Virus record (IMG/VR): IMGVR_UViG_3300042691_025822 | Span: 1-26,646 of that record | Source: a virus | Strand: one strand, 5' to 3' | Length of the DNA: 26,646 bases | Shown here: one piece after another, positions 22,675 to 25,230 of the stretch | How positions within the stretch are numbered: position 1 is the first letter of the stretch | Layout of the letters: each line of letters starts with the position of its first letter | Notes under the pieces: generated by a model | What the model was told of the DNA's origin: nothing | Databases searched by the model: none | Seen by the model: only the letters and a program-made list of their open reading frames with translations | Made by a program: the position numbers and the translations under genes

Positions 22675-23016
22675 TCACACCGCCCGTAGCTCAACCCCAG
22701 TGACCTGCCACAGCCCCCCAGGCAGCAAGGCCCAGGATGGCGCCGACGCATATCGCCATCGAACCGGGACCGGCGGTATGGCACGCCCCACCCAAACCGC
22801 AGAGGGCAGCTCCCAGGATGCCAATAGCCCAACGATCCTGAAGTGCTCCTCAAAGTCGTCGAACTGCGCGGGGGTGAACACCGGCAACGGCAAGCTCACG
22901 GTCTGGCCAGCCAAGGTGCCGCTCAACAAAAACCGCCGGTCAAGTTCGGCGGCAATATTGAAATCTCCTAGCGTATGCGGCCTCCCGATCGGCAAGCAAG
23001 ATTCAGGGAAATTCAT
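22675..23016 (-). CDS. Small minor-tail-like structural protein
   Basis: A 113-aa protein on the reverse strand. It matches the outline of a small phage virion family: an N-terminal RPHTLGDFNIAAELDRRF, then VFTPAQFDDFEEHFRIVGLL, an 'IPPVPVRWRYASAPSWALLPG' strand and the ending LWQVTGVELRAV, where relatives end 'G.W.V...LEv'. It overlaps the stop of the upstream 283-aa gene by one base (TAATG). Function beyond virion structure is unknown. Confidence 0.6.
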   Translation of the reverse strand: MNFPESCLPIGRPHTLGDFNIAAELDRRFLLSGTLAGQTVSLPLPVFTPAQFDDFEEHFRIVGLLASWELPSAVWVGRAIPPVPVRWRYASAPSWALLPGGLWQVTGVELRAV

Positions 23017-23867
23017 TAAACGTAAACCCCGGCGATATCAAAGAGATTGGCATTAATTGGATAAGCAGCACCCGTGGCAGGGTAGACTATTCCCCAATCT
23101 ACAATCATCAAAACCCTGTCGGCGGTAGCAGCCCCGCCAAGCCTTTGATAGTAAACCACATATCTAGGTGAAACTGTAACGCCCGTAAGGATAATTTGAT
23201 TGGCCTGCACTATGGTTTTGTCGGCAGCATCGTCGCGGGTGATCGTCAACGGGGCAGCCACGCCACCAGCGGTGTAGCCAGTGCCAGTCACCTCGCTGGT
23301 GAGATCCGACCGGAACGAATGGGCGGCGCTAGGGGTGTAGCCAGTGCCTAGCAGCATGGCGTAGTAGTTGCCAGCGCTCAGGTTTATGGTTTTGTTTATA
23401 ATCGCATTAACTGTTGCGTGGGGAATTATGATAGTGCCGCTGCCTACCTGTGCGGTTTCAATTTTTGCTTCTTCGATCCTGAATAATCCGCCAGTGCTGC
23501 TTTGTGCGCTGCCGATGTTGTTGTATCCCAGTACAGTCTGCTCGGAGGGGGTTGCTGAAGGCCGATAGTAATACAGAATCCCACTGGCGCCCGTGATATT
23601 GGCATTCCATGTAACTGGAGCGATAGTTAGGGCATTGATCCCAGTGGTAGTGTTCATTGAGTTGGCAAGCGTTACCGGTTTTCCGCCTGCTGAATAGCCG
23701 GTAACTGGGGTAATCTCACCGCTACCAATTGCGGCCATAGTATCGTGGGTGTCCCTATTAAATACAAAACTGGAAGTCATTAGCTGACCGTAAAATGTGC
23801 CGGTCAGCGGCATGTCGGTAGTGGCCAGGCTGTATTGGGCCCGGTTGCTGAGGATGAAGACAGGCAT
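23016..23867 (-). CDS. Duplicated-domain surface protein (fibre/spike-like)
   Basis: A 283-aa protein made of two related beta-rich units. Unit A (about 20-130) has MLTGTFYGQL-like strands, 'HDTMAAIGSGEITPVTGYSA' and then 'GG..VTLANSM' and 'ILYYYR'. Unit B (about 165-283) repeats the order with 'RSDLTSEVTGTGYTAGGVAA', 'QANQIILTGVTVSPRYVVYY' and 'LMIVDWGIV'. The 'EV.GTGYTAGG' signature is common in phage structural proteins of unknown exact role. Its location on the strand opposite to the tail genes, together with the 113-aa gene, is unusual. It could be a fibre, decoration or adsorption protein. Confidence 0.65.
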   Translation of the reverse strand: MPVFILSNRAQYSLATTDMPLTGTFYGQLMTSSFVFNRDTHDTMAAIGSGEITPVTGYSAGGKPVTLANSMNTTTGINALTIAPVTWNANITGASGILYYYRPSATPSEQTVLGYNNIGSAQSSTGGLFRIEEAKIETAQVGSGTIIIPHATVNAIINKTINLSAGNYYAMLLGTGYTPSAAHSFRSDLTSEVTGTGYTAGGVAAPLTITRDDAADKTIVQANQIILTGVTVSPRYVVYYQRLGGAATADRVLMIVDWGIVYPATGAAYPINANLFDIAGVYV

Positions 23868-23890
23868 TAGGCGCGGCTAGATTGTTGCCA

Positions 23891-24121
23891 CTATGCTACC
23901 GGGCCTGGCAGGGTGTAGTTCCCGTCGAAGCGAGGCCCTAGATAAATGTCGCCAGGGCGAGGGCGGAATCTACGGCTCAGATCAATCACAACGTTGGGGC
24001 TACGAAGATCCACTCCGTACAGCCGTGCCAGCTTGGGGCTGTTGATGAAATGCTCTTGCCCGTCGTTGGCGCTGGTCACGTAGCCAGGGCACAACACATA
24101 GCGGGTTTGGGGGTCGTTCAT
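23891..24121 (-). CDS. Conserved-type small phage protein, function unknown
   Basis: 76 aa from ATG 24121. This start gives an ATGA overlap with the gene upstream; the longer frame back to 24277 is not needed. The protein begins 'YVLCPGYVTSANDGQEHFI' (residues 8-26), then LARLYGVD and ends with 'PGDIYLGPRFDGNYTLPG'. This pattern recurs in small phage proteins with no assigned role, usually near other accessory genes. It has no membrane segment. Confidence 0.65.
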   Translation of the reverse strand: MNDPQTRYVLCPGYVTSANDGQEHFINSPKLARLYGVDLRSPNVVIDLSRRFRPRPGDIYLGPRFDGNYTLPGPVA

Positions 24122-24384
24122 TCGTCCTCTGTCAGTGGGTTGGATGGATCCATGCAGCGATTGCAACCCACCCTGCCGGAGCAGTCGCACAGCCCCTCGA
24201 TATGCGGAAGGTGGGACCAGGCAGCGATGAGGTGGGTGGTGGGTTGCTGGGCGCGGTGACGATGGATCAACTCCCACAGCGGCCCAGGGCGGGGATCCTG
24301 GTGGAGGGTGCCATCGATGACAACCTCCCAGCAGCCGCTGCCCCTAGCATCGGTTCCAACCCGCAACTGAGGCTCGCACGTCAT
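24118..24384 (-). CDS. Small Cys-rich protein, function unknown
   Basis: 88 aa from ATG 24384. The longer frame to 24501 is rejected because those extra residues are antisense to the NblA-like ORF. Residues 1-60 are mixed strands and helices (SGCWEVVIDGTLHQDPRPGP, HLIAAWSHLPHIEG). A tight cysteine cluster, CDCSGRVGCNRC, lies at about 68-79 and could bind a metal. Its ATG (CAT at 24382-24384) overlaps an ATG of the other strand in CATG. It overlaps the 76-aa gene downstream by four bases. Confidence 0.55.
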   Translation of the reverse strand: MTCEPQLRVGTDARGSGCWEVVIDGTLHQDPRPGPLWELIHRHRAQQPTTHLIAAWSHLPHIEGLCDCSGRVGCNRCMDPSNPLTEDE

Positions 24385-24400
24385 GGCACCACAGCCCTGG

Positions 24401-24808
24401 ATGATTCCACAGCTGAGCCTAGAGGCCGAGTCGGACCTACAGCGCATGAGGGAATTGTTGCAAACCATGAGCCGTGATGAGCTATTGGGGCAGGCAGACA
24501 TTCTTCTGAATCAAGTAGTAAATAAAGCGGCCGTCATCAGCCAGGCAATCCGCCACATTTCCGAGCTGGAGGCCCAGGAGGCGGTACGGGACCCAGCGCC
24601 GGGGCCAATACCTCAGGGCTGGGGGCAGGGTGCTGGGGGGATTGGAGTAGGGTCACACCACCGGGCCCACGCGCCTGATCTCCCAGTAGGCGCCAGTGCC
24701 TGCCTGCAACTTGGCCTCGACCAATCCGTGTTTCATCAGCGCGGAAATGCGGCGGCTGACTGCGGATTGCGTGCAGCTCCAGCGGGCTTTCAGCTCTGCC
24801 GTGGTTAG
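24401..24808 (+). CDS. NblA-like small protein with C-terminal extension
   Basis: Lone + strand ORF in a - strand block, read from ATG 24401 (135 aa); ATG 24383 is an alternative. Residues 1-60 are two amphipathic helices: PQLSLEAESDLQRMRELLQT, then MSRDELLGQADILLNQVVNK and IRHISELEAQEA. The 'LSLE....L......MSR.EL...' layout resembles NblA, the roughly 60-aa adaptor that directs phycobilisome breakdown in cyanobacteria. nblA genes are known in freshwater cyanophages such as Ma-LMM01 and PaV-LD. Codon use looks coding. Beyond residue 60 the frame becomes Gly/Pro-rich, and from 24653 it is antisense to the HTH gene, so the natural end may be earlier or the gene has lost its stop. The NblA call is pattern-based and tentative; a different helical protein is possible. 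Confidence 0.5.
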   Translation: MIPQLSLEAESDLQRMRELLQTMSRDELLGQADILLNQVVNKAAVISQAIRHISELEAQEAVRDPAPGPIPQGWGQGAGGIGVGSHHRAHAPDLPVGASACLQLGLDQSVFHQRGNAAADCGLRAAPAGFQLCRG

Positions 24809-24958
24809 CAACGGGGTCAGGCCGGCCCGGATGCGTGGCCCCAGCCAGTCGGCCAGCTCCAGGCAATCGAGCAGGGCGCTATCGGGCACCCAGGCACGCC
24901 GAATCAGCAGGGCATGCACCAGGTCGGCGCGGTCGCCAAGGTCTGGGGCTGTCGTCAC
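24653..24958 (-). CDS. HTH-like protein, copy 2 of a tandem paralog pair
   Basis: A 101-aa probable DNA-binding protein. Residues 16-40 are a helical region with 'ALLDCLELADWLGPRI'. Residues 48-80 have a winged-helix pattern, 'LLTTAELKARWSCTQSAVSR' and then 'RISALMKHGLV', and the end reads 'GAYWEIRRVGP'. The neighbouring 91-aa protein shares the same order (LLDCL..A, the L...W.C....A..R motif, YWE.HRVGP), so the two are paralogs. The ATGA junction couples them. Its 3' end overlaps the + strand NblA-like frame by about 156 bases. A role as regulator is inference. Confidence 0.65.
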   Translation of the reverse strand: MTTAPDLGDRADLVHALLIRRAWVPDSALLDCLELADWLGPRIRAGLTPLLTTAELKARWSCTQSAVSRRISALMKHGLVEAKLQAGTGAYWEIRRVGPVV

Positions 24959-25230
24959 GCCGGCCCCACGCGATGCACTTCCCAGTAGGCGTTGCGGCCG
25001 GAGTGGTAGGTGCTATCGACCAGCCGCTCAAACCGCAGGGTATCCATCCGGCGGATTGCCTCCCAGTTGGAGCAGCGCCAAAGAGAGTGCAGCTTGGCCA
25101 AGGTGATCGGCTGGGAGACGATGTCGGGATGAAGTTTCTCCAGCTCTGCGGCCAGGGACAGGCAGTCCAGCAGGGTGTCAGGGGCAACCGTGCCCCGGCG
25201 GGCGAGGGTAGCGCGTAGAAGGTCGATCAT
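24955..25230 (-). CDS. HTH-like protein, copy 1 of a tandem paralog pair
   Basis: A 91-aa protein: MIDLLRATLARRGTVAPDTL, then LLDCLSLAAELEKLHPDIV, an HTH-like 'LAKLHSLWRCSNWEAIRRMD' and the ending 'GRNAYWEVHRVGPA'. It aligns over its whole length with the 101-aa protein downstream. The shared C-terminal YWE.RRVGP motif suggests a common wing or dimer surface. It overlaps thymidylate kinase at 25227-25230 and the second copy at 24955-24958. No closer family was recognised. Confidence 0.65.
   Translation of the reverse strand: MIDLLRATLARRGTVAPDTLLDCLSLAAELEKLHPDIVSQPITLAKLHSLWRCSNWEAIRRMDTLRFERLVDSTYHSGRNAYWEVHRVGPA

Follow-up and report, generated by a model that had tools for sequence, protein, structure and literature searches.

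The window, that is, the whole stretch of 26,646 nucleotides that was analysed, was a virus record of 26.6 kb whose gene set was of the siphovirus type. The plus strand encoded an HNH endonuclease, TerL, portal, head protease/major head protein, tail terminator, tape measure and tail proteins, and from about position 22,675 onward the genes lay mainly on the minus strand. TerL was 69% identical to TerL of Synechococcus phage S-LBS1, whose Synechococcus host has phycoerythrin-rich phycobilisomes (PMC6157547). These structural genes and this TerL identity placed the locus in a virus infecting cyanobacteria. A phycobilisome-bearing cyanobacterial host had been proposed in the sequence-only reading from the nblA-like gene, and TerL gave independent support to it; sequence comparison supported a siphovirus of phycobilisome-bearing freshwater picocyanobacteria of the Synechococcus/Cyanobium type.

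An NblA-like open reading frame of 141 codons was found on the plus strand, from the ATG at 24383 to a stop codon ending at 24808. The start had been placed earlier at 24401, which is an internal in-frame ATG (residue 7), while the remark that the gene lies opposite to its neighbours was correct, the adjoining genes being on the minus strand. The conserved part (80 codons, 24383..24622, plus strand) encoded an N-terminal W-M-I-P motif and then an NblA-type domain at about residues 10-58. A promoter scan near the start revealed no promoter-like site. On one side a small 88-aa ORF (24118..24384, minus strand) formed a divergent pair with the gene, its ATG overlapping the NblA-like ATG (CATG). 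S-LBS1 (A31), S-CBS1 (gp25) and many virus loci had a similar small ORF there, likewise on the opposite strand. On the other side, a winged-HTH (MarR-like) protein was encoded convergently (24653..24958, minus strand), in the position that a sigma factor occupies in S-LBS1 and S-CBS1. It was followed by a second small protein (24955..25230, minus strand), whose C-terminal part resembles the adjoining HTH protein; both end in YWE(I/V)xRVGP, and from their sequences the two ORFs look like a tandem duplication. Thymidylate kinase (PF02223; 25227..25868, minus strand) belonged to the same flanking block, which also exists in freshwater relatives.

The last part of the ORF (24623..24808, plus strand) was a tail antisense to the HTH gene, which was not conserved and was read in another frame downstream of a deletion of 2 nt, as judged against the related loci L003 and L004. 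The proteins of L003 and L004 had 89 aa, and both stopped ahead of the HTH gene. In the window 2 nt were lost after 24622, so the relatives' TAG (24648-24650 in the window) fell out of frame. The 75-residue antisense extension described in the sequence-only reading was thus present, but it was a frameshift product private to this contig, and the idea of a new C-terminal domain was rejected for this reason. The deletion could stem from an error in sequencing or assembly, and the frameshifted tail might impair the window copy.

Homologues with intact frames were identified in L003, L004 and L005, whose aligned proteins were 86-89% identical to that of the window, and the frame was also intact in the S-LBS1 homologue A32 (32% identity). 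Most differences in the plus frame affected the third position of a codon (9 of 13 against L003, 12 of 17 against L004), and dN/dS was 0.14 and 0.12 for the two comparisons. The NblA-like gene is under purifying selection.

Related virus loci (80 in total) were fetched via the neighbouring tail protein, and their ORFs were then scanned with a profile of the first five members. About 20 distinct homologues were obtained in related siphovirus records, with lengths of 75-98 aa in the relatives, many of them 20-35% identical to the window protein. S-LBS1 A32, S-CBS1 gp26 and KBS-S-2A CPKG_00010 (the last one added by tblastn) shared both the family and the slot with the window gene, S-CBS1 being less similar to the window protein than S-LBS1. 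A second search covered 23 whole records and detected the family in 20 (E <= 0.1), with one weak, stop-interrupted match among them; S-CBS3 and two other records of the 23 gave no family match. In loci with enough flank, the usual order was a same-strand lysis gene, a small opposite-strand ORF starting within about 70 bases of the NblA-like gene, the NblA-like gene itself and an opposite-strand regulator. The regulator was a sigma factor in S-LBS1, S-CBS1, KBS-S-2A and others, in contrast to the HTH protein of the window, and freshwater relatives had HTH and thymidylate kinase genes there. This fixed slot held in most loci examined, and the window itself had no lysis gene there. A C39-type peptidase, a probable lysis gene, lay ahead of the slot in close relatives (L003, 9108-9743), and at this place the window had minus-strand ORFs of the phrog_644 and phrog_7644 types (23016-24217).

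Close relatives were checked for annotation with another function, and all annotated copies were "hypothetical". Back-translated pattern searches with the window protein returned only near copies, with none in genome contigs. Family members were also seen on two small contigs (3-6 kb) of picocyanobacterial assemblies, L221 and L222, a sigma factor and a peptidase adjoining the member in L221; these copies were regarded as prophage or phage contamination.

The NblA layout that had drawn attention to the ORF, LSLEAESDLQRMRELLQTMSRDEL, was confirmed and matched PF04485 positions 1-49 of 50 in register. The PF04485 HMM search did give a match (15.1 bits, E 9.9e-4 for this record), but below the cut-off of 25. 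Pfam scans of the window protein scored PF04485 at 13.3-15.2 bits with E 0.03-0.12, and the best score among relatives was 18.3 bits against the same cut-off, with only 2 of 20 members matching at all. The sole family match of the window protein to NCBIfam was the NblA model NF045916 (residues 11-34; E 0.014, 15.5 bits against a cut-off of 100). No single family member exceeded the Pfam or NCBIfam cut-off. Single-sequence searches of the window protein gave no match in PHROGs and no NblA by phmmer against PDB, and tblastn of S. elongatus NblA against annotated phages gave nothing useful.

Profiles built from the phage family were searched against PDB. With profile A5 (20 phage members, no NblA), the first four ranks among 177,635 entries were 3cs5 (E 1.5e-4), 1ojh (0.05), 2q8v (0.068) and 2qdo (0.11), all of them NblA and all in register 10-58. 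With profile A7, from which the window's own clade was removed, 3cs5 was again at rank 1 with E 0.006, with GluA2 chains at E 0.03-0.1, and the E-value support from A7 alone was modest. When a phage-only profile was run against six-frame ORFs of 80 cyanobacterial loci, all 80 NblA ORFs ranked above 4,364 others, the first non-NblA ORF having E 0.46. In the reverse search, with an NblA profile as query and 17,834 ORFs from phage loci as targets, the family made up the top 14 entries, including several overlapping copies of the same loci (best E 0.0058). Comparison of the phage family with NblA by hhalign gave Prob 93.5 and E 2.4e-7, against Prob 1.3 for the reversed-NblA control. These profile tests share seed proteins and so are not fully independent, while their databases and directions differ. 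At the sequence level, we considered the profile comparisons decisive for NblA homology, where the single-sequence match alone would be only suggestive. They support naming the window protein a divergent homologue of NblA rather than a Pfam NblA member, because the scores are below the curated cut-offs.

AlphaFold2 on the family alignment predicted helices at residues 13-26 and 31-69 with mean pLDDT 92.5, and the control model of a real NblA had helices at 12-25 and 30-60. Since the alignment pairs window residue 10 with NblA residue 9, the two models share one helix register. The predicted fold was the helical hairpin expected of NblA, a protein of about 60 aa with a short helix followed by a long one. 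Foldseek searches of PDB and BFVD with the window model returned no NblA structure and no meaningful match; this silence was uninformative, because a genuine NblA model used as positive control also had 0 matches.

The window protein resembled NblA (PF04485 and the four PDB structures above) in its small size, in-register homology over about 49 residues with LSxE...(M/I)SR, and two predicted helices with equal limits. The similarity was strongest in the N-terminal half, namely the first helix and turn. Of the ClpC-binding motif LSLEQ.F, the window protein retained LSLE, with EAES in place of EQQF, a stretch that is variable across the family. Unlike NblA, to which it was 27% identical, the window protein had a W-x-x-P leader, which was conserved in the family and absent from the cyanobacterial NblA aligned. 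Its second helix, the phycobiliprotein contact in NblA, had diverged strongly, with changes in its C-terminal part, and exceeded that of NblA by about 9 residues. L51 and K53 of Anabaena NblA, which we take to be the phycobiliprotein-binding residues, aligned to A55 and R57 of the window protein in a strongly diverged region. The sequence-only reading of the ORF as a divergent NblA was supported by the phage-only profiles, the reverse search and the in-register helix layout.

Related genes in cyanobacterial genomes were also found by the phage profile, best in genomes of 2-3 Mb. In one picocyanobacterial genus, 23 of 25 genomes had matches, often 2-5 each, and most of these host genes were of the type ELSVGQQFEIERFNRAIDATADPDQLR... 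Two to five nblA-like paralogues, mostly unscored by Pfam, were seen in each of eight picocyanobacterial genomes (L216-L220, L223-L225), often paired on opposite strands about 1 kb apart, and a small "LKW..GELS" ORF lay near them in L216-L218. No phycobilisome gene cluster was seen beside the host nblA-like genes, whose neighbours, by eye, were psbA-like, transporter and reductase-like ORFs. By hhalign, these divergent host genes were homologous to the phage family (Prob 96.7, E 4.2e-10), while the picocyanobacterial family scored Prob 59.5 against canonical NblA in profile-profile comparison. By these scores, the siphovirus family is closer to NblA and to the picocyanobacterial group than those two are to each other.

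Phage nblA is known in Ma-LMM01, MaMV-DC, PaV-LD, podoviruses, S-TIM5 and S-SCSM1, and a divergent nblA was reportedly described by Nadel et al. in 2019. S-SCSM1 ORF237, published as NblA (PMC9602691), matched the picocyanobacterial profile (4e-7) and gave no match to the siphovirus-family profile, so it represents a branch distinct from that of the window. Because ORF237 matches their profile, the host genes found here appear to be the "divergent nblA-like" genes cited in PMC7439483. The freshwater cyanophage genes of Ma-LMM01, MaMV-DC and PaV-LD are likewise viral and would serve the same purpose, but they are near canonical NblA according to the literature and their carrier phages are unrelated. 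In Ma-LMM01, NblA retains every conserved residue and is 35% identical to its host counterpart (PMC4103541).

In cyanobacteria, NblA is an adaptor which joins ClpC to phycobiliproteins and so recruits the Clp protease to the antenna (PMC7966870). It contacts ClpC through a conserved N-terminal motif and phycobiliproteins through a C-terminal one (PMC4103541). Expression of cyanophage nblA in cyanobacteria leads to loss of phycobilisomes (PMC9602691). The ORF is probably a divergent viral nblA, and by analogy its product would most likely be a ClpC adaptor for phycobilisome breakdown in infection. The phage protein would dimerise into a four-helix bundle like NblA, its N-terminal LSLE motif would bind host ClpC and its second helix would bind phycobiliproteins. 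The Clp protease would then be brought to the antenna and the phycobilisomes degraded, which may benefit the phage by freeing amino acids and lowering light input during infection.

A ClpC adaptor derived from NblA that delivers a new cargo, such as a host regulator or a defence protein, was considered unlikely. It would suit a protein whose NblA similarity lies mostly in the first helix and turn, with a divergent, longer second helix and a leader that the aligned NblA lack, and a slot adjoining a sigma factor in marine relatives and S-LBS1. Against it, every named host strain is a phycobilisome-bearing Synechococcus, other phage NblA proteins that are divergent do bring about a loss of phycobilisomes (PMC9602691), and no positive evidence pointed to another cargo. 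We consider quite improbable a specific version, in which a re-targeted adaptor retains the ClpC-docking half, its new, longer helix 2 and its W-x-x-P leader select a different host protein, and the small divergent ORF is its functional partner. Re-targeting keeps a small chance, since the half for ClpC is more conserved than the half for the cargo. It is very doubtful that the protein acts as a dominant-negative NblA, which would pair with or compete against host NblA-like proteins and shield the antenna in infection. Hosts of this kind do carry several nblA-like genes, and NblA works as a dimer (PMC7966870), so mixed dimers might be disabled by an altered cargo helix; however, published tests of phage NblA show degradation rather than protection, and no sequence feature suggests inhibition.

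An unrelated generic two-helix phage protein resembling NblA by compositional chance is strongly disfavoured. It could draw on the weak single-sequence matches (E 0.03-0.12) and on the Foldseek result, but Foldseek misses a genuine NblA model too, NblA specifically came out on top in two independent databases and in either direction of search, and the reversed controls failed. That the frame is spurious and antisense to genuine minus-strand genes is scarcely credible, although the ORF shares sequence with the HTH gene and reaches the start of the 88-aa ORF. The overlap with the HTH gene arises from the frameshift, and the reading was refuted by a frame and protein kept in about 20 phages, by the selection acting on the plus frame, and by annotation as CDS in S-LBS1, S-CBS1 and KBS-S-2A.

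Cyanosiphoviruses have been described as being without photosynthesis genes such as psbA and psbD, in the S-LBS1 paper, where nblA is not mentioned (PMC6157547), and no photosynthetic gene was listed for the S-CBS1 group in a 2017 survey (PMC5332604). The legend of Fig. 5 in PMC9602691 includes a symbol for cyanosiphovirus nblA sourced from Nadel et al. 2019, so we do not claim the first siphovirus nblA. Phage NblA is already known, and the window gene adds to it a new, divergent member from a lineage of siphoviruses. If the family works as NblA, the S-LBS1/S-CBS1 lineage would dismantle the antenna instead of supporting photosystem II. The constant position of the gene in freshwater and estuarine phages whose hosts are in culture (S-LBS1 on TCC793, S-CBS1 on CB0201 and KBS-S-2A on WH7803) makes this idea directly testable. 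In addition, the siphovirus family bridges canonical NblA and the poorly recognised picocyanobacterial nblA-like genes, and thereby helps to name the host genes.
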